From a virus: a DNA stretch of 23,983 bases. Location of the stretch: positions 1-23,983 of the IMG/VR virus record IMGVR_UViG_3300017753_001335; one strand, written 5' to 3'. The notes beneath the pieces are model-generated. The model saw nothing but the letters and a program-made list of their open reading frames with translations. It ran no database searches and was not told the origin of the DNA. Shown here in pieces: positions 5,362 through 21,499 of this stretch (position 1 is the first letter of the stretch; each line of letters starts with the position of its first letter). A program made the position numbers and the translations under genes.

Positions 5362-5390
5362 AATATAACTTATTTTAGATTAATTGTCAA
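5362..5390 (-). promoter_or_regulatory. Early-type (sigma70-like) promoter for gp43
   Basis: TTGACA at 5385-5390, a 17-bp spacer, and TATATT at 5362-5367. The base before the -35 box is C, as in every other copy in this window. Only five bases separate the -10 box from the gp43 ATG at 5356, so transcription would begin at or next to the start codon. Confidence 0.8.
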
Positions 5391-8550: not shown

Positions 8551-9219
8551 TTATTTAAAAACACTCTCTTTTTCTACTGCAATCCAATATTGTATTGGTC
8601 TATTTCTATTAATGAAATGAGCAAGACCTTTTTGTGAGATTGCAACATCATAATCGTCTTCTATTTGTTTGAAGTTTTCCATTCTAAAATGAATAGAAAA
8701 TTCTTTTTCTGTTTCACCTAGTTCTACTGAATATTCATTTGATGATTTATTCTTTTTATCAGATGCAGTAATAGTCATTTTAGAACCATTGCCTGTTAAT
8801 ATAATATCAGGTAGTGCCAGTGAATTAGCACCTTTCATTAGTCTTTCAAATTTTTCTTTTGTGAATTTAAAAGTCACATATCTATCTGGTAAGTCAATTG
8901 TCTTTGAAGGGGTAACTAATACACATGGATCTGCAAAGAAATATTTAATTGATTGACCATACTTCTCATCTGCAATAGTAACATATTGACCACCATTAAA
9001 CTTTAATTTAGGTTGTTCAAACAGTTCTACTGAACGCAAGAACTCTGGAAGTTTATAGATACCAAACTCTTGTTCAAATTGTTCATCAACAGATGCTTCT
9101 GCTAGAACATTCTTCAATGTAGATATTGTACGAATTGTTTTACCTGGTTTTACTAAAATGTTCTCATTAATCTCAGAAAAGTTTTTGAGAACAGAAAGTG
9201 TTTGGTTACTTACCTTCAT
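8551..9219 (-). CDS. 45: Sliding clamp (gp45)
   Basis: Processivity clamp; as a trimer it tethers gp43 to DNA and, in T4, also activates late transcription by binding gp55. The N-terminus MKVSNQTLSVLKNFSEIN aligns well with T4 gp45 (MKLSKDTTALLKNF...). Later parts are more diverged (DPCVLVTPSKTIDLP, DIILTGNGSKMTITA), as is normal for phage clamps; at 222 aa the length matches T4 (228 aa). The frame opens at an ATG at 9234, but the ATG at 9219 fits the family start and has GGAG five bases upstream. That start lies 14 bp inside the preceding DUF3310-like gene, so the two are coupled. Confidence 0.95.
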   Translation of the reverse strand: MKVSNQTLSVLKNFSEINENILVKPGKTIRTISTLKNVLAEASVDEQFEQEFGIYKLPEFLRSVELFEQPKLKFNGGQYVTIADEKYGQSIKYFFADPCVLVTPSKTIDLPDRYVTFKFTKEKFERLMKGANSLALPDIILTGNGSKMTITASDKKNKSSNEYSVELGETEKEFSIHFRMENFKQIEDDYDVAISQKGLAHFINRNRPIQYWIAVEKESVFK

Positions 9220-9478
9220 CTTCACTCCTATCATAATTTATTAATAATGTAATGTAGTGCATCGCTTTAAATAAATCCATTTTATTCTTGCCATGTTTTT
9301 TACCATAACGACACAAGTATTTGATAGCATTTGCTTGAGCAAATTCACGACCAATATTCAGTTCTTTAAATATATCTTGAATTTGAAAACCACTACCACT
9401 ATCAGAGTAGTGTTGATTATATGTAGATTTCACATAATCAATAAGTTCATATAATATTTTATCTTCGTTATATTTCAT
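9206..9478 (-). CDS. DUF3310-like small protein
   Basis: A 90-aa protein of the kind annotated as DUF3310 ('SaV-like') in many phages, whose role is not established. The recognisable region is NIGREFAQANAIKYLCRYGKK (about residues 46-66) followed by DLFKAMHYITLL, matching the family pattern of GNAIKY..R.GKK then DL.KA..Y. The frame could be opened by a GTG at 9490, but that codon lies within the promoter -10 box (TATAGTG); the ATG at 9478 is therefore the start. The promoter leaves only about 3-4 bases of leader. The gene leads the clamp, clamp loader, regA unit and overlaps gp45 by 14 bp, which suggests a role linked to replication or nucleotides, by context only. Confidence 0.75.
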   Translation of the reverse strand: MKYNEDKILYELIDYVKSTYNQHYSDSGSGFQIQDIFKELNIGREFAQANAIKYLCRYGKKHGKNKMDLFKAMHYITLLINYDRSEDEGK

Positions 9479-9488
9479 AATACGAATC

Positions 9489-9517
9489 ACTATACAGTAT
9501 ATTTAATATTTTGTCAA
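9489..9517 (-). promoter_or_regulatory. Early-type promoter for the gp45-44-62-regA unit
   Basis: TTGACA at 9512-9517, 17-bp spacer, TATAGT at 9489-9494, again preceded by C. The first downstream ATG is ten bases past the -10 box, giving a leader of about three or four bases. This is the only promoter seen ahead of the replication genes 45, 44, 62 and regA. Confidence 0.78.
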
Positions 9518-9519
9518 GT

Positions 9520-10236
9520 CTAGATATCATGTAACATTCCAAATTTGTAATCTTCTGGAAGAAATTCAGTTTTTAAGATATCACACGCCTCATCAAAAGG
9601 TAATATACTATCATCAGGTCTATATAAGGGAAAACTTACAACACATCTTGGTATGTCACTTAAACTATTTTTAGCACTATGAAAATAATTTGTGCTTACA
9701 AGTGTAGGATAACAAGTATCTAATACAACCTCTTCCATTAATTCTGCATCTTCTCTGTTTAACATAGGTATTTCTTCTTTTATTTTTATATCATCATCTT
9801 GGTGAAATGGTAGATGATAAATTTTTTTACTATCTATTGGTTTAAAATATTGCAATCTACTTGTATAATGTCCGAAGGTAAAATTAATAGAACAGGTATG
9901 AAACCTATCAAAATCTAATTCTGTTCTTTCTTCATTTGCCCAAATAGCAATACCATTATCTGTGTGTATTGTTAAGTTTTGTTTTTTATTTGTGATTAGA
10001 TATGGCACATATTCACTTAATTTAATTCTAGATTTATAATGACTATTGATATAATCAACAAACAATTTATGTTCTTTTAAATGCAATGGTTGATGTTTGT
10101 AACCACATTCGTAAAAAGCATCTGCTTTAAATTTTCTATCAACATTTATCATATCAACAAAATTGTCAATAGTTGAAAAAGATTTTATAATTGCTTCTTT
10201 TTTTAAGAAGTAAGGTATATCAAGATATCTATACAT
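9520..10236 (-). CDS. Putative 2OG-Fe(II) oxygenase-like protein B (tandem paralogue)
   Basis: 238 aa, not a family I can name. It is clearly paralogous to its neighbour: both begin M[YF]RYLDIP[YF]F and share a scaffold. The residues expected of a double-stranded beta-helix 2OG/Fe(II) oxygenase are present in order: HTD (H91, D93) in NLTIHTDN, a middle strand SINFTFG..TSRLQYF, then YPTLVSTNYFHSAKN (H186) and IPRCVVSFPL (R197). H-x-D...H...R is the usual Fe and 2-oxoglutarate binding set. A C-terminal LPFDEACDIL motif is also shared with the paralogue. It starts 8 bp inside the paralogue and has its own promoter (10248-10276), so it can be made alone. The function and the enzyme assignment are inference from the motif order; the two copies have diverged widely outside it. 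Confidence 0.6.
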   Translation of the reverse strand: MYRYLDIPYFLKKEAIIKSFSTIDNFVDMINVDRKFKADAFYECGYKHQPLHLKEHKLFVDYINSHYKSRIKLSEYVPYLITNKKQNLTIHTDNGIAIWANEERTELDFDRFHTCSINFTFGHYTSRLQYFKPIDSKKIYHLPFHQDDDIKIKEEIPMLNREDAELMEEVVLDTCYPTLVSTNYFHSAKNSLSDIPRCVVSFPLYRPDDSILPFDEACDILKTEFLPEDYKFGMLHDI

Positions 10237-10813
10237 GATGTTTATTTAATATACTACAAGCATCATCAAATGTCAAGTATGAACCATCTTTATTTAATAA
10301 TGAAAAACTAATAACATACCTAGGTGTGTTTGATAATTTATTATATGCTCTATGAAATGCACCTGCATTTACTAAAGTTGGATAACTATTATCATTTGTT
10401 TCACATATAAACTTGGCATCTTTTTCATCTACTACAGGTACTAACTCTTCAAATTTTAAATCATCATTTTGTTTGTATTGTTTGTATTGTATTTTTGATT
10501 TATCTTCTACTTCATAAAACTGTAATTTACTTTTATCATCTGCAAAATTAAAGTTAAGTTTTGCAAAACTATTTTCATGTTCTAAATCTGAGTGTATGGT
10601 CATAATTGAATTTTCTGAAGTGTATAACTGTGTAACATAACCTAAAGTTATCTTGTCACCATAATTATCGTTTATCCATTTTTTAACTTGATTGTATTCA
10701 GATAAATCAATATCTCTCATAATATAACCTGAATTTGAATTATCTATTTTAATGTATTTTAATTGTTTGTTTGGTTGCTTTATGAAGAACGGTATGTCTA
10801 AATAACGAAACAT
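10229..10813 (-). CDS. Putative 2OG-Fe(II) oxygenase-like protein A (tandem paralogue)
   Basis: 194 aa from the ATG at 10813. The frame opens further upstream at 10876, inside hsp20, but the 10813 start gives MFRYLDIPFF, matching the paralogue's own start, and lies 20 bp after the hsp20 stop. The oxygenase-like signature is HSD (H74, D76) in IMTIHSDLE, the strand AKLNFNFADDKSKLQFY, then YPTLVNAGAFHRAYN (H154) and TPRYVISFSL (R165), with the shared ending LTFDDACSIL. It follows hsp20 with no promoter between, so it should be transcribed with it, including from the late promoter. The 3' end of this gene contains the -35 and -10 boxes of the next gene. Target unknown; Asp/Asn-hydroxylase or prolyl-hydroxylase-like chemistry on a protein is possible. 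Confidence 0.6.
   Translation of the reverse strand: MFRYLDIPFFIKQPNKQLKYIKIDNSNSGYIMRDIDLSEYNQVKKWINDNYGDKITLGYVTQLYTSENSIMTIHSDLEHENSFAKLNFNFADDKSKLQFYEVEDKSKIQYKQYKQNDDLKFEELVPVVDEKDAKFICETNDNSYPTLVNAGAFHRAYNKLSNTPRYVISFSLLNKDGSYLTFDDACSILNKHHV
10248..10276 (-). promoter_or_regulatory. Early-type promoter inside paralogue A, driving paralogue B
   Basis: TTGACA at 10271-10276, 17-bp spacer and TATATT at 10248-10253, preceded by C. It lies within the coding end of the preceding gene. The ATG of paralogue B follows 11 bases after the -10 box, so the leader would be about four or five bases with no Shine-Dalgarno. Confidence 0.72.
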
Positions 10814-10832: not shown

Positions 10833-11270
10833 TTACTTGATTGCAATAGTCTTTGGTTTTTTATGTTCAGGCACAATTCTTTCTAAAGAAACAGTCAATA
10901 GACCATCTTTTAGTTCTGCACCGTTTACTTCTACATCATCAGCAATTGTGAAATGCCTTTCAAAGTATCTCTTTGAAATCCCTTGATGTATTACTTCTTT
11001 CTCTTCTTCAGAATTTTCTCTGATAGATTTTACTAATAAAGTATTTTCTACTACCTTAACTTCAATATCTTTCTTCGAATAACCTGCGAGAGCAATTTGA
11101 ATATCGTATTTGTTATCAGTAACTTTTACGATATCATAAGGTGGGTAAGATTGTTTGTAAGAACCTCGTAGTATATTCTCGTCAAACATCTTTCCAAAAT
11201 CTTCAAAGATGTCGTCAAATCCTATAGTTACTGGTCTTAATTGATTGAATATGCTTAATGCGTTTGTCAT
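10833..11270 (-). CDS. hsp20: Small heat-shock protein (Hsp20/alpha-crystallin)
   Basis: ATP-independent chaperone that holds unfolding proteins; small HSPs are common in marine T4-like phages, where a role in virion protein folding or host stress is proposed. The 145-aa protein has a short N-terminal arm (LRPVTIGFDDIFEDFGKMFD), an alpha-crystallin domain at about 40-135 with YPPYDIVK..DNKYDIQIALAGYSKKDIEV, and the terminal strand ELKDGLLTVSLERIVPE, then the basic tail KKPKTIAIK with an I-x-I-type motif (IAI). The start has the strongest Shine-Dalgarno in the window (GGAGGT) on a long leader, unlike the other promoter-proximal genes. Both an early-type and a late-type promoter precede it, suggesting expression throughout infection. 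Confidence 0.96.
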   Translation of the reverse strand: MTNALSIFNQLRPVTIGFDDIFEDFGKMFDENILRGSYKQSYPPYDIVKVTDNKYDIQIALAGYSKKDIEVKVVENTLLVKSIRENSEEEKEVIHQGISKRYFERHFTIADDVEVNGAELKDGLLTVSLERIVPEHKKPKTIAIK

Positions 11271-11330: not shown

Positions 11331-11359
11331 AATATAATACTTTTATTTATAAATGTCAA
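11331..11359 (-). promoter_or_regulatory. Early-type promoter for hsp20
   Basis: TTGACA at 11354-11359, 17-bp spacer, TATATT at 11331-11336, preceded by C. The -35 box overlaps the TGA stop of kdsA. The leader is about 54 bases and ends in GGAGGT, so here the same promoter type feeds ordinary Shine-Dalgarno initiation. Confidence 0.78.
11344..11351 (-). promoter_or_regulatory. T4-type late promoter for hsp20
   Basis: An exact TATAAATA, the late-promoter element recognised in T4 by RNA polymerase carrying gp55. It sits in the spacer of the early-type promoter for the same gene, so the two cannot be occupied together. A transcript would start near 11338 and carry a leader of about 68 bases with the GGAGGT site. 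Confidence 0.7.
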
Positions 11360-12189
11360 GCAATAAATCCATTTTTTGTTACTTCATCTAATTCGACTAA
11401 CTCACTTAAAAGTTTATCTAGACTATCTAATCTGAGCATATTAGGTCCATCACTAGGTGCATTATCTGGGTCTTGATGTACTTCCATAAAAATACCTGCA
11501 ATGCCTGTCGTGATAGCACACTTTGCTAATACTGGTACAAAATCTCTATTACCACCAGATGTAGTACCATTGCCGCCAGGTTGTTGTACAGAATGTGTTG
11601 CATCAAAAATAACTGGATACTTTGTTTCTTTCATTATAGGCAACGCAGTCATATCAGATACTAATCTGTTATAACCAAAACTTGCACCTCTCTCACATAA
11701 TAAAATTTTATCATTTATGTGTTCTATTTTACTAATAACATTTTTCATATCCCAAGGTGCCATAAACTGACCTTTTTTAATCATTACAGGTTTATTAGTC
11801 ATAGCAGCAGCAACCAGTAAATCTGTCTGTCTACTTAAAAATGCTGGTATTTGAATAATATCTACAACTTGAGAAATAATAGTTTGTTCTTCTGTGTGTA
11901 TATCTGTTATAAGAGGCACATCATCAAATTCTTTCTGAAGATATTCAAATATATCCATAGACAAATCTAGACCTGCACCTCTTTTTGAGTTTGCACTTGT
12001 TCTATTTGCTTTGTCAAATGATGATTTAAAAACAAATGGTACTTCATATGTCATTGCAATTTCTCTTATTAGACCACACATATCTATAGAATGTTGTAGT
12101 GATTCTACTTGACAAGGTCCTGCAATTAAAACAAATGGACTATCATTGTTAAAACCAAATACTCTGTTATTTAAATTAATATGTTTCAT
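11356..12189 (-). CDS. kdsA: 3-deoxy-8-phosphooctulonate synthase (KdsA)
   Basis: KdsA condenses phosphoenolpyruvate with arabinose 5-phosphate to make Kdo 8-phosphate, the precursor of the Kdo sugar in the lipopolysaccharide inner core. The full-length protein (277 aa) has IAGPCQVES (C26), FKSSFDKANRTS (54-65), FLSRQTDLL, KKGQFMAPWDMKN, CERGASFGYNRLV, FDATHSVQQPGG (H199) and FMEVHQDPDNAPSDG (E236, D247). The Cys at the first site with His/Glu/Asp at the right distances marks the metal-dependent class; E. coli KdsA has Asn there. This is an auxiliary metabolic gene, complete and apparently functional, at the end of the gp55-to-kdsA gene run. Its start overlaps the methyltransferase stop by 4 bp. 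It may keep host surface sugar synthesis going or alter it. Confidence 0.96.
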   Translation of the reverse strand: MKHINLNNRVFGFNNDSPFVLIAGPCQVESLQHSIDMCGLIREIAMTYEVPFVFKSSFDKANRTSANSKRGAGLDLSMDIFEYLQKEFDDVPLITDIHTEEQTIISQVVDIIQIPAFLSRQTDLLVAAAMTNKPVMIKKGQFMAPWDMKNVISKIEHINDKILLCERGASFGYNRLVSDMTALPIMKETKYPVIFDATHSVQQPGGNGTTSGGNRDFVPVLAKCAITTGIAGIFMEVHQDPDNAPSDGPNMLRLDSLDKLLSELVELDEVTKNGFIA

Positions 12190-13271: not shown

Positions 13272-13680
13272 ATACATTCCCTGGCAATGTTCCTTTTGCC
13301 CAACTTGTTTTACCTATTAATTTCATCTTCATACTATCATAGAATTTGTTTGCTGTCAAGTTATCTTCTCTTACAGATAGATAAACATTGTTAGGACAAT
13401 AGTCAAAGAACCTATTTAATACATCTCTTGCATTACCCTTACCTTGTGTAGCATTTGCTATCTGATGTAATACAGTATCACCTTTTTCTAATTGCACATT
13501 ACCTACTTTTTGTTTTCTTTTTGTATGGTGAAAAGTTATAAGAACATTATTATCAAGAATCAGTTGTTTATTTTCAATCATTCTTTTCATGTAATCTGTT
13601 CTTACATGAGGAAACCATTGTTTATGTTTGTAAAATATTTCTTTTACTTTTTCAAAATCTTTAGAACATGCTAATTTCAT
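13237..13680 (-). CDS. GNAT-family acetyltransferase
   Basis: A 147-aa protein with the acetyl-CoA binding signature QGKGNA (79-84, the Q/RxxGxG/A motif A) after the strand VLHQIAN, and the C-terminal motif B YLSVREDNLTANKFYDSMKM (100-119), where N107, A110 and Y114 are the usual positions. The ending GKTSWAKGTLPGNVYV is unusual for GNATs. Members acetylate amines of proteins, antibiotics or small molecules; RimI-like enzymes acetylate ribosomal proteins. The substrate is unknown. It overlaps both neighbours (20 bp with the hydroxylase upstream, 35 bp with the methyltransferase downstream) and so belongs to the gp55-to-kdsA run. Confidence 0.75.
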   Translation of the reverse strand: MKLACSKDFEKVKEIFYKHKQWFPHVRTDYMKRMIENKQLILDNNVLITFHHTKRKQKVGNVQLEKGDTVLHQIANATQGKGNARDVLNRFFDYCPNNVYLSVREDNLTANKFYDSMKMKLIGKTSWAKGTLPGNVYVRNKFNRLSI

Positions 13681-14275
13681 TTATCATACCCTCAAGTTTC
13701 TCATTGATAAAACAGTCAATAACTAAATGTAATCTGTCAAAATCTGCATCATTTGTTACAGCGTGTGGTTTTGATACATCTGTATAATAATATCTACCTT
13801 GTTGTAAGTTACATTCTATTTTAGTTTTATCTTCCCACAAATACATTTTAACCTTTTCATTTGTTTTTAGGGGTGCGTGTATTCTGATAATATTACCATT
13901 CTTTATTTCTTTATCTACTTTATCTGTATGTTTTGATATCTTAGTACCTGCTCTCAATCTCATAATTCTAATTCGTTCAAAGTTTGCAGGTATATGCCAC
14001 AGTATTTGTTTTATAGGTGCACATTCTGGTTGTTCATATAGATGAGTATACATTAAACCTTGACCTTGTATATTACTATCTAATACACCTGGTTTTAAAA
14101 TGTTACTAATGTCATCACTATAACCTCTTATTGATATTGCTTGCCATTGTTCTTTTTTATTAAACTTAGTTTTTACTGCTGAGTAATTTAATTTGTTTAA
14201 ATAGTTTACCATTTCGTCTAATGGTTCATCAGCGAATGATGGTAAGTCTAAAAGTTTAAATGTCGCTCTTGTCAT
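13661..14275 (-). CDS. Aspartyl/asparaginyl beta-hydroxylase-like 2OG oxygenase
   Basis: A 204-aa protein resembling the Asp_Arg_Hydrox family, which hydroxylates Asp, Asn or Arg side chains using Fe(II) and 2-oxoglutarate. The core is IRIMRLRAGTKISKHTDKVD (H116, D118), RIHAPLKTN (H133), then GRYYYTDVSKPHAVTNDADFDRLHLVID-like spacing with H171 and R181 as distal Fe ligand and 2OG-binding residue. The order H-x-D, basic middle residue, H, R is intact, so activity is plausible. The first 95 residues are a variable cap. It lies between deformylase (20 bp overlap) and GNAT (20 bp overlap), three consecutive genes able to modify proteins. Confidence 0.82.
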   Translation of the reverse strand: MTRATFKLLDLPSFADEPLDEMVNYLNKLNYSAVKTKFNKKEQWQAISIRGYSDDISNILKPGVLDSNIQGQGLMYTHLYEQPECAPIKQILWHIPANFERIRIMRLRAGTKISKHTDKVDKEIKNGNIIRIHAPLKTNEKVKMYLWEDKTKIECNLQQGRYYYTDVSKPHAVTNDADFDRLHLVIDCFINEKLEGMINEISMF

Positions 14276-14825: not shown

Positions 14826-16534
14826 ACTGCCTCTAATCTAGTAAAGTTTTTATACTTTTCATATTTTATAATGTTTGTAAATTTGTCAAATAATATATCA
14901 CCCTTATGTGATATTACAAATACATTTTCATTCTTTAATGTTCTTATTATTTTAAAGAAATCATCTGTACCCTGCCCGTCTAAACTACTGTCAAATATTT
15001 CATCTAGTATTAATAGATTTGTATTTGTAGAGTTCTTCATCTTTGCAATAGTTCTCCAAGTAAATAATAATGCAAGGTCTATTCGCATCTTCTCACCCTC
15101 ACTAAAACTATTGTAAATAAAATTATCTCTAAATCTGCTTTTTATTGTTTCATTAAACTCTTCATCTAATTGAAAGTTTACATAAAAGTCCATAGATTGT
15201 AAATGTTGATTTATTAATTGATTCATAATAGGTAAATACTTTTTAATTATCTTTGTCTTTGCACCTTTATCATTTAGTATTTCTCTTAACACATCTACAT
15301 ATTCTTTCTCTTCAGTAACTTTCTTTAGTTGTTCTTCAGATTGTTTTACTTCTCGTAATAATTCATCTAACTCTATTTTTACAGATTCTATATCTGCTTT
15401 ACTACTATAATTTTTTAATTCTTCGTGTATAGAATCACTATGCACTTTTATATTTTCTAAAGAGTTATTTATTTTTGCAATATCTATATTCATTTCTTGA
15501 ATTTTTTTAGATATAGAATTATAACCTGATACCTTTTCTTCTGTTTTTGTAATCTCTGTAAATAAATCTTTTAATCCATTTGACAATGCATCTACTTTAT
15601 TTTTTTCTACATTACATTTTTCGTGTTTAAAGTTTTCATCTATTGGTTGTGTGCAAGTAGGACAAGTATCGTTTGTTTCAAAAAACTGTAATGTTTTTTT
15701 ATGTGTATTTAAATTTGTAGATATTTTAGATTCTAATTTATTAAGTTTTAATAGTTTATTATCGTGTAAAGATTTATCTTTTAACTTTTCTTTTTGTATT
15801 CCTATCTCAATATTAAGATTTTCTATGTCTTTTTCATATTTCGTTTTATTTTCGTTGTTTTTTTCAATGGATTTTAACTTACCCTCTTTAAAGTCGGTCT
15901 CCTTAACGCTGATAGATGATAGATACTTTGCTTCACTTTCATACTTAGTGCGTAGTAAAGCACCGTGATGGCGCATTTCTGTGAGTTTTTTTTGAAGGTC
16001 CGCCTGTTGTGAACGCAGTAATTGATCCATATGACCAAAAACTCTTATATCTAAGATTTCTTCTACAACTTCTCTTCTATATCGTGGTCTTAACTTCATA
16101 AATGGTTCATAAGACGAAGAACCTAATAAAACTACCTGAACAAATGCTCTGTAATTTAATTTCATTACAGTTTGTTCTAAATATTTTTGATAATCAATAT
16201 TACTTGCATCTTGATTCACTAATTTATTATTTTTATATATTTCAAATAAGTTTGGTTTGATACCTCTTTTTACTGTGTATGGAATTGTACCAACTAAAAA
16301 TTCAACTTCTAATAAACAATCGCTCTGATTAATAGTATTTACTAACTGGTCTTTTTTTATAAGTCTAAATGGTTTATTAAATAATACAAAACACAATGCA
16401 TCTAGTAATGTTGATTTACCAGAACCATTTGTGCCTATAACTAATGATGTAGAAGACTTATTAAATTCTACTTCAATAGGTGTGTTGCCCGTAGACAGAA
16501 AATTTTTATATCTAAGTTTTTTAAATACTATCAT
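14822..16534 (-). CDS. 46: Recombination endonuclease subunit gp46 (Rad50-like)
   Basis: SMC-family ATPase that pairs with gp47 to resect DNA ends for recombination-dependent replication. The 570-aa protein (T4: 560) has Walker A GTNGSGKS (34-41), a coiled coil on either side of a zinc-hook CPTC (about 289-292), the ABC signature SFSEGEKMRIDLAL (about 472-485) and Walker B LLILDEIFD (about 505-513). The start ATG overlaps the oxygenase gene upstream by 14 bp. A patch at about 15890-16030 (residues about 168-214) uses markedly GC-richer codons than the rest of the gene; see findings. Otherwise intact. Confidence 0.96.
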   Translation of the reverse strand: MIVFKKLRYKNFLSTGNTPIEVEFNKSSTSLVIGTNGSGKSTLLDALCFVLFNKPFRLIKKDQLVNTINQSDCLLEVEFLVGTIPYTVKRGIKPNLFEIYKNNKLVNQDASNIDYQKYLEQTVMKLNYRAFVQVVLLGSSSYEPFMKLRPRYRREVVEEILDIRVFGHMDQLLRSQQADLQKKLTEMRHHGALLRTKYESEAKYLSSISVKETDFKEGKLKSIEKNNENKTKYEKDIENLNIEIGIQKEKLKDKSLHDNKLLKLNKLESKISTNLNTHKKTLQFFETNDTCPTCTQPIDENFKHEKCNVEKNKVDALSNGLKDLFTEITKTEEKVSGYNSISKKIQEMNIDIAKINNSLENIKVHSDSIHEELKNYSSKADIESVKIELDELLREVKQSEEQLKKVTEEKEYVDVLREILNDKGAKTKIIKKYLPIMNQLINQHLQSMDFYVNFQLDEEFNETIKSRFRDNFIYNSFSEGEKMRIDLALLFTWRTIAKMKNSTNTNLLILDEIFDSSLDGQGTDDFFKIIRTLKNENVFVISHKGDILFDKFTNIIKYEKYKNFTRLEAV

Positions 16535-17168
16535 CTTTTTTATAAACTACTGCAGGTGCCTTTCTTGCCATCATATCAAAATTTACACTCATACTTCTTC
16601 TCACACCAGGACCTCTAAATGGATATACTAGATGTTCTAAGTCATATGGAAATACATAGAAGTCTCCCACTTTAGGGTCTATTAAATGATGTTTTATAGA
16701 AAACTGTCCACCACAATTACCCGCTAGTGTTAATCTACCATTATGAGGCATAGCAGTATTTGTATACTCTTTACCAAAGTCAGGTACTTTTAAAAATAAA
16801 ACTGAAGTAAACCCTATCTCAACTAAACCAGAGTGTCTATGCATAACTTGATATTCACCTTCTCTTTGGTCATTTATCCAAGCATCATTAATATGAAATG
16901 CATCTAACTTAAAAGATGGTTCATACAAAGATTGATTATATGTTGTTGATACTGCCTCTACTAATTCTCTATCTTTATCTGCTTCTGCTAACCAATCTCT
17001 AACTCTATACTCACTAGTTATTTTCGCTGATAAAGATTCTCTTGCATCTTCAAAAGATTTATCTGTTATTTGTTCATCCATTTTTTTGTTTAGTCTATCA
17101 ACTAAACCTTTTGATACTGTAAACAATTGAACTTGTTGCCCAAAGTATAATGTCTTAATATGTTTCAT
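16521..17168 (-). CDS. 2OG-Fe(II) oxygenase family protein (2OG-FeII_Oxy_5-like)
   Basis: A 215-aa protein with the arrangement of the 'putative 2OG-Fe(II) oxygenase' family widespread in marine phages. Visible are DAWIND..EGEYQVMHRHSG (H110, H112), FTSVLFLKVPDF, then DPKVGDFYVFPYDLEHLVYPF (H179) and VRRSMSVNFDM (R190/R191). The second member of the first motif is His rather than Asp in H-x-H, as I recall is common in this subgroup, so the exact metal ligands are uncertain. It sits between gp47 (ATGA overlap) and gp46, splitting the usual 47-46 pair, which shows it is co-expressed with recombination genes. Substrate unknown. Confidence 0.78.
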   Translation of the reverse strand: MKHIKTLYFGQQVQLFTVSKGLVDRLNKKMDEQITDKSFEDARESLSAKITSEYRVRDWLAEADKDRELVEAVSTTYNQSLYEPSFKLDAFHINDAWINDQREGEYQVMHRHSGLVEIGFTSVLFLKVPDFGKEYTNTAMPHNGRLTLAGNCGGQFSIKHHLIDPKVGDFYVFPYDLEHLVYPFRGPGVRRSMSVNFDMMARKAPAVVYKKDDSI

Positions 17169-19489: not shown

Positions 19490-20945
19490 TTTTTAATCCC
19501 ACCTTGTGTATTTCGTAGTTAAATTTTTCATCTTTGTATATATTTAGTCGTTCTCTAAAATGATTGAGTGTGTAGTTTGATGACCCTAAATCATCTGATA
19601 TATCATATAAAGTAGCATCTGATTTGTTATCTTTCAATCTAAGTCCCCTACCGATAGACTGTAAGTTTCTAATGCGTGATTTACTAGGTGAGGAAAAAAC
19701 AATGTTATGCAAATTCCTAATATTAATCCCAGTAGAAAAAGTACCATAGGAAGCAATGATAATCGCATTATCTGATTTTTCCGTAATATTACGAATGTAT
19801 TCTCTTTCATCTGTATCTACTCCTCCGTGTACATAAAATACTTTTTTATCTTCTGCCTTTTCAGCAATCATTTCTCTTAAATCTTTACCATGTTTTTCTA
19901 CAAACTGAAACAAACATAGAGTGTTTCCTTTCAACGCAATACATAAATTTCTTATATATTTATTACGACCCATATGATGCACAAGATAATCCATTTCTTC
20001 TTGATACTTCATATTCTTTGGTGCGTTTAAGTGTTGTAAAACTAAACAATATATTTTCAATTGTGCTAATTGATTTCTCTCTTGCAATATATTTGTAGAT
20101 ATTACTTTATTTACATTGCCAAATACGCCTTCTAAAACTAGTTTATGTGTCTTTGAACCATCTAATGTACCAGTGAGACCAACCCTATATTTACAGTTCT
20201 CTAGTTTGTTCATAATCTTTGTTAATGATACTGCCTTAAATAGATGTGCCTCATCTCCTATGACCATACCAAACTGTTCAAACCATTTCTTTGGTTGTTG
20301 ATATATTGATTGCCAAGTAGATATCACAACTCTCTTAGGTGTTGTCTTTGACATGCCTTGATATATTCTGTGTACATTTCTAAAACTATTGTAACCATAA
20401 TCTTTAAAATCTTTATATAATTGTTCTACAAGAGATGTTGTAGGAACAATAATTAATATTTTATTATTTTTATCATCTTTACTTCTAAGTAGATTATAAA
20501 TTAATATTAGATATATGATTAATGATTTACCACTGCCTGTAGGTGATAGTAATAAACATCTTCTTTTTTGAATTGAATATATAAATGCTTCTTTTTGATA
20601 ATCTCGTACTTCGTGAGGAAGTTTTAATGCACTTAAAAATCTATCTATGTGTTTAGGTTTTATTTTTGCATCTTTTATTTTTGTGCCATTAACAACCTGT
20701 ATATTATTTTTTTCTGCCCAATCTAAAATGTAATTATATAAACCGACATAAATTTGACCAGACGCATATTGAAATAACCTTATTTTACCATCCCATACTC
20801 TACTTCTATATTGAGGTGTAAATTTAAAACCTGGCATTTCAAATGCAAAGTATTCACTTAAATCTCTCTTAATAGAATTTTCTGCTTCTACTTTAAGATA
20901 AACTTCATTCTTTTTTTCTATTACAATATATTTTGTTAAGACCAT
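19482..20945 (-). CDS. uvsW: UvsW helicase
   Basis: Superfamily 2 RNA-DNA and branched-DNA helicase that in T4 unwinds R-loops and promotes recombination-dependent replication late in infection. The 487-aa protein has the family N-terminal domain (EYFAFEMPGFKFTPQYRSRVWDGKIR pattern, seen in pieces), Walker A PTGSGKS (about 135-141), GDEAH motif II, LTGTLDGS motif III, and motif VI QSIGRGLRLKD. The frame also extends to a TTG at 20963; the ATG at 20945 has GGGA upstream and fits better. It overlaps the 2OG gene by 10 bp. The stretch at about 19640-19800 (motif V-VI) is somewhat less AT-rich than its surroundings. Confidence 0.96.
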   Translation of the reverse strand: MVLTKYIVIEKKNEVYLKVEAENSIKRDLSEYFAFEMPGFKFTPQYRSRVWDGKIRLFQYASGQIYVGLYNYILDWAEKNNIQVVNGTKIKDAKIKPKHIDRFLSALKLPHEVRDYQKEAFIYSIQKRRCLLLSPTGSGKSLIIYLILIYNLLRSKDDKNNKILIIVPTTSLVEQLYKDFKDYGYNSFRNVHRIYQGMSKTTPKRVVISTWQSIYQQPKKWFEQFGMVIGDEAHLFKAVSLTKIMNKLENCKYRVGLTGTLDGSKTHKLVLEGVFGNVNKVISTNILQERNQLAQLKIYCLVLQHLNAPKNMKYQEEMDYLVHHMGRNKYIRNLCIALKGNTLCLFQFVEKHGKDLREMIAEKAEDKKVFYVHGGVDTDEREYIRNITEKSDNAIIIASYGTFSTGINIRNLHNIVFSSPSKSRIRNLQSIGRGLRLKDNKSDATLYDISDDLGSSNYTLNHFRERLNIYKDEKFNYEIHKVGLKNE

Positions 20946-21499
20946 TGTTTTCCCAATGTCCAACCTACTAACACCTTTCTAGTGCCTTTTCGAACTTTGT
21001 TAACTCTATGCCACATAAAAGATGGAAATACTAATAATGTTCCAGGTTTAAATCCTCTTAAATCTATTGTGTACTTTTCATTATCATCTTCTTTAGGATT
21101 AGGTACGGTTATATCAAAAGCACCTCCCTCATAATTATCATTTAAACTTAATGTAAAACTTAATTTTCTTATATACCCATTATCATATGGTTCAGATAAA
21201 CTGTCTATGTGCCAGTTATAAAAATCATCTTTGTTATATACTGTGTATTGAAAAGGTTCAAAATCTGCAAGTGAAAAGTTCCACCCTGCTTTTTTGTTTG
21301 CAAGTTTTACTGATTCTATTAATTGTAGTTCTAGGTGTCTGTTTTCTATCCAAGAAACTTTAGAAGAACGATTGAATTGTTTGCCGTCTAATATCTCGCC
21401 TGTTTTTAATTCTTTACTTTCACCTTGTGAAATAATATTACTACACAGTTCTTGTGTTATTGAATTATTAACAATGTGATAAACTTTATCTAAATACAT
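20936..21499 (-). CDS. 2OG-Fe(II) oxygenase (prolyl-4-hydroxylase-like)
   Basis: A 187-aa protein with a complete P4Hc/PiuC-like signature: DDFYNWHIDS (H97, D99), LSFTLSLNDNYEGGAF, PGTLLVFPSFMWHRV (H164) and GTRKVLVGW (R174), giving both iron ligands and the 2-oxoglutarate-binding Arg. This group hydroxylates protein residues or small molecules. It is inserted between uvsY and uvsW, which are adjacent in T4, and is linked by a single-base overlap to uvsY (its ATG shares a base with the uvsY stop) and a 10-bp overlap to uvsW. So it is co-expressed with recombination functions. Of the five oxygenase-like genes here, this has the clearest active site. Confidence 0.9.
   Translation of the reverse strand: MYLDKVYHIVNNSITQELCSNIISQGESKELKTGEILDGKQFNRSSKVSWIENRHLELQLIESVKLANKKAGWNFSLADFEPFQYTVYNKDDFYNWHIDSLSEPYDNGYIRKLSFTLSLNDNYEGGAFDITVPNPKEDDNEKYTIDLRGFKPGTLLVFPSFMWHRVNKVRKGTRKVLVGWTLGKQWS

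Follow-up and report, generated by a model that had tools for sequence, protein, structure and literature searches.

A tandem pair of predicted Fe(II)/2OG-dependent oxygenase paralogues in the hsp20–gp45 slot of a pelagimyophage-type phage

The tandem pair and its surroundings

The window is the whole stretch of viral DNA that was analyzed, and at 23,983 bases it is identical to the virus record from which it comes. Two adjacent genes occupy 9520–10813 on its minus strand. The upstream copy (10229..10813, minus, 194 aa) and the downstream copy (9520..10236, minus, 238 aa) have reading frames that overlap by 8 nt, and both encode predicted Fe(II)/2OG oxygenases. The start of the upstream copy is the ATG at 10813; there is also an in-frame TTG at 10876, within hsp20. 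Read along the minus strand, the order is hsp20, the tandem pair, a small MazG-like gene, and then gp45 and gp44. The slot holding the pair is bounded on its 5' side by hsp20 (10833..11270, minus; Pfam HSP20 E 1.4e-19), the neighbor that a first-pass annotation made from the letters alone had given it. Its 3' boundary is the MazG-like small protein gene (9206..9490, minus; homologues agree with a start at 9478), and the gp45 sliding clamp (8551..9234, minus) is the next conserved neighbor.

The DNA polymerase encoded in the window shares 75% identity with its counterpart in Pelagibacter phage Mosig EXVC030M and about 50% with cyanophage polymerases, and the nearest relatives of the hsp20 are those of Mosig and HTVC008M. 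From these affinities, the phage is a pelagimyophage-type T4 relative, of marine origin and with a presumptive SAR11 host. The window also contains metabolic genes adjoining the replication genes, namely a carbamoyltransferase (798–2111) and a member of the DAHP-synthase family, possibly a KDO8P synthase (11356–12189). Three more predicted 2OG-Fe(II) oxygenases, belonging to three different Pfam families, are encoded at 13661–14275, 16521–17168 and 20936–21499, which brings the number predicted in these 24 kb to five, counting the tandem pair.

The two copies are paralogues along their whole length, with 34% identity across 221 aa (BLASTP E 2e-35) and a local alignment score of 298, where 1000 shuffles gave a mean of 37 (sd 6.5) and a maximum of 76. 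The first-pass annotation had recognized adjacent paralogous genes here by their shared motifs, all of which are present: the starts MYRYLDIP and MFRYLDIP, HTD and HSD, the FH, PR..VSF and PR..ISF, and the endings PFDEACDIL and TFDDACSIL. Its further statement that the copies share little else is contradicted by the full-length alignment.

A sigma-70-like promoter match, TTGACA-N17-TATATT (11/12), lies at 10248..10276 on the minus strand, within the 3' end of the upstream copy and about 12 nt before the start codon of the downstream copy. A second promoter inside the upstream gene had been suggested at the first reading, and it is borne out as a consensus match, real as a motif and promoter-like only. 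It has a counterpart in the second tandem locus known to us (L001, described below), at L001:470–498, just before the downstream copy there. Another TTGACA-N17-TATATT match (11331..11359, minus) stands upstream of hsp20 and could serve the upstream copy too. Sites at the 11/12 level number seven on the minus strand of the window, where about one is expected, and six of the seven are shortly upstream of a gene start. Strong minus-strand sites of the TTGACA-N17-TATANT-like form are found at 5390–5362, 9517–9489, 10276–10248, 18984–18956 and 21978–21950, and also at L001:470–498. They stop only about 6–23 nt short of start codons, several of them so near that the predicted transcripts would be leaderless or almost so. 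We considered whether the conserved C-terminal motif of the proteins is mere promoter DNA and rejected that reading, since the downstream copy and the single copies found in relatives all terminate in this peptide, and their promoter-like sites fall after the gene.

Conserved residues and predicted fold

Thirteen columns are invariant in the seven distinct proteins of the family, which are mostly 26–44% identical. These include H91, D93, H186 and R197 of the downstream copy (H74-x-D76, H154 and R165 in the upstream copy), and apart from these four no column is all His, all Asp or all Arg. The HxD...H triad is therefore kept in order, and the invariant basic residue past the distal His follows it by 11 residues. 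As far as sequence can tell, the order matches that of an Fe(II)/2OG oxygenase, the one on which the first reading had been based, and since both tandem copies retain the full set, neither gives the impression of an inactive partner. The start [YF]RY[LV]D..LP and the ending F.[DE]A..[IL][LF] appear to be specific to the family.

Sequence searches of Pfam, PHROGs, NCBIfam, PADLOC and the PDB gave no family match for either protein, in keeping with the earlier failure to place them in a named family; sub-threshold matches to MobC_2, WisP and Caf1M were taken as chance. A tblastn search of 50,697 phage records with five family members returned nothing at E <=1, scans of genome contigs found no member, and there was no match in Rfam. 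The profiles PF13640, PF13759, PF05118, phrog_61 and phrog_81 did not match the tandem-pair proteins, and hhalign against three other 2OG-oxygenase families of these phages, using small member alignments, gave probabilities of 0.1–2.2%, nothing significant. The N-terminus of the Asp/Asn hydroxylase encoded at 13661–14275, TFKLLDLPSF, resembles the family start YRYLDLPF (hhalign E 0.02, 25 columns only). We do not claim kinship with that hydroxylase, as it would rest solely on the similar start.

AlphaFold2 models were built from alignments of the seven sequences only, and they reached pLDDT 88.7 and pTM 0.86 for the upstream copy and pLDDT 78.8 and pTM 0.80 for the downstream copy. Both are predicted beta-barrels, as anticipated by the proposal of a double-stranded beta-helix, and in both the H, D, H and R fall on consecutive predicted strands in the usual order and position. 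The PDB neighbors listed by Foldseek are 2OG oxygenases from the top of the list, with E down to 3e-5. VIA-align gave Z 9.6 for the downstream model with OkaE (rmsd 4.4, 176 aligned) and Z 10.8 for the upstream model with Cpz10 bound to alpha-KG (7v4m; rmsd 2.5, 126 aligned), an enzyme described in PMC9814697. The predicted barrel and the order of HxD...H and late Arg are likewise those of PHD2, the viral collagen prolyl hydroxylase vCPH (5c5t) and ALKBH3, but identity to these members of the superfamily is 5–15%, and the tandem pair fits no named subfamily. Z scores of 9–11 at such identity support the fold and not the activity. Among the matches, prolyl hydroxylases score level with AlkB homologues and small-molecule hydroxylases, so the fold names no substrate. 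The nearest folds in BFVD, at TM 0.72–0.78 to the upstream model, are uncharacterized phage proteins, among them A0A6J5LJN6 and A0A6J5TBF2 of uncultured Caudovirales, which are of similar length but only 13–19% identical and are themselves unnamed.

Relatives and divergence in the slot

Six IMG/VR contigs yielded members of the family, and in all of them the gene or genes sit in this one slot, flanked by hsp20 and by the MazG-like gene that precedes gp45. Direct searches yielded one relative locus, L001, which likewise has a tandem pair; searching with the neighboring clamp gene led to L007, L008, L010, L011 and L012, all of which have a family member there. The tandem arrangement occurs in two phages only, the window and L001, and the other relatives have a single gene. 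L001 also has a 457-aa frame (L001:1269–2642, DUF262/HNH-like by eye) between its tandem pair and the MazG-like gene. Scanning about 75 other pelagimyophage loci, with clamps of about 60% identity, with a profile of the seven proteins revealed no member close to gp45. The profile found none in the whole genomes of Mosig and HTVC008M either, apart from one match in Mosig (71463–71600, E 6e-4), which we take as chance because it covers a brief YPTLVN-like segment and the protein that contains it has neither the HxD nor the FH motif. Within the collections searched, the family looks confined to one phage clade.

We then asked what fills the slot elsewhere. Among 41 loci with a frame of at least 90 aa between hsp20 and the clamp, a peroxiredoxin is present in 31, a rubrerythrin in two (in one of them beside a peroxiredoxin) and the present family in four, and HTVC008M has a phrog_81 2OG oxygenase there. 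In seven further loci, the slot lacks any frame of at least 50 aa. Since most loci have a peroxiredoxin, we rejected the notion of a slot reserved for 2OG oxygenases. It is often occupied by proteins of oxygen or peroxide chemistry, although this may be coincidence. Across L018–L091, the interval between hsp20 and gp45 is a recurrent site for oxygen- or peroxide-related genes.

The phylogeny of the family places the four proteins of the tandem loci on one side and three single-copy proteins on the other with branch support 99/98; long branches inside leave the order unsettled. The downstream copies of both tandem loci share a private C-terminal tail, KF.ML.D. Between the window and L001, the upstream copy is 78% identical with dN/dS of 0.10–0.22, similar to that of the clamp (0.11–0.15), and is under purifying selection. 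For the downstream copy, identity between the same two loci falls to 38%. While the flanking hsp20, MazG-like protein and clamp are 81–99% identical across loci, the slot proteins are 30–45% identical, excepting the upstream pair. The slot thus appears either to evolve unusually fast or to exchange variants, and because synonymous divergence (dS) among the slot genes seems close to saturated, fast evolution is indistinguishable from a swap with a distant relative.

Candidate activity and alternatives

The observations support an undescribed, divergent family of 2OG oxygenases, which was the core of the first-pass reading. Very probably, both genes encode active Fe(II)/2OG-dependent oxygenases of an unnamed subfamily that is so far restricted to one pelagimyophage clade. 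We infer that the HxD...H would bind Fe(II), that the conserved Arg would hold the carboxylate of 2OG, and that O2 and 2OG would be consumed in hydroxylating a substrate or demethylating it oxidatively, giving CO2 and succinate. Duplication within the subfamily would have produced the pair, with the downstream copy diverging faster thereafter; that copy also appears to possess its own promoter.

An AlkB-like role in nucleic acid repair or base modification, serving the replication genes downstream, would suit the adjoining gp45 and gp44. DNA repair has been proposed for cyanophage 2OG oxygenases (PMC3037559), and ALKBH2/3/5 and AlkB belong to the tied group of structural matches, with no match to the AlkB family at the sequence level. 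However, prolyl hydroxylases and small-molecule hydroxylases score equally or higher, and the peroxiredoxin, rubrerythrin or empty slot of other loci does not suggest a replication role. We consider this role unlikely. In preference to DNA repair, we favor hydroxylation of a protein or small molecule as the likelier role, chiefly on account of how much faster the slot protein changes than the genes beside it.

The fold and metal site might instead have been kept for other chemistry, as in a cupin-type or 2OG-independent enzyme or a binding protein. The breadth of the fold matches and the lack of a sequence link to any characterized oxygenase would allow this. 2OG oxygenases usually anchor 2OG at a late Arg after the distal His, and such an Arg is invariant in all seven proteins; together with the 2OG oxygenases among the listed PDB neighbors, it makes other chemistry distinctly improbable. 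For the duplicated genes, the first-pass annotation had suggested two substrates or a heterodimer. Least probable of all the alternatives is an obligate heterodimer of one catalytic and one regulatory copy, for which overlapping tandem genes in two phages might speak, but each copy has the complete H-D-H-R set, other relatives manage with a single gene, and the downstream copy has a promoter-like site of its own.

If the pair are active 2OG oxygenases, they join phages already rich in such enzymes. T4-like cyanophages have several 2OG-Fe(II) oxygenases (PMC3037559), pelagiphages of another group have eight distinct non-orthologous ones (PMC9599517), and an Asp/Asn beta-hydroxylase is a core gene of pelagimyophages (PMC7029224). 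The known pelagiphage and cyanophage enzymes (phrog_61, phrog_81, PF13640, PF13759 and the PF05118 Asp/Asn hydroxylase) are of the same kind, several to a phage, and the phrog_81 member of HTVC008M even occupies the same slot, but none has significant profile similarity to the tandem pair. A further divergent branch is therefore expected in kind; the new parts are the tandem form and the divergence against constant flanks. We offer as a speculation, with the odds well against it, that in this clade the slot is a fast-diversifying or allele-swapping 2OG oxygenase locus, maintained by pressure from a host target that keeps changing, such as a surface or defense component modified by the enzyme; the tandem copy would then widen the range.

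Phages of SAR11 rank with the most abundant in the sea and encode many 2OG oxygenases of unknown substrate (PMC9599517, PMC3037559). Since the present family is absent from the libraries searched, its members would be annotated just as hypothetical proteins. The unusual divergence of the slot gene between near-constant neighbors marks it as possibly facing a changing partner.
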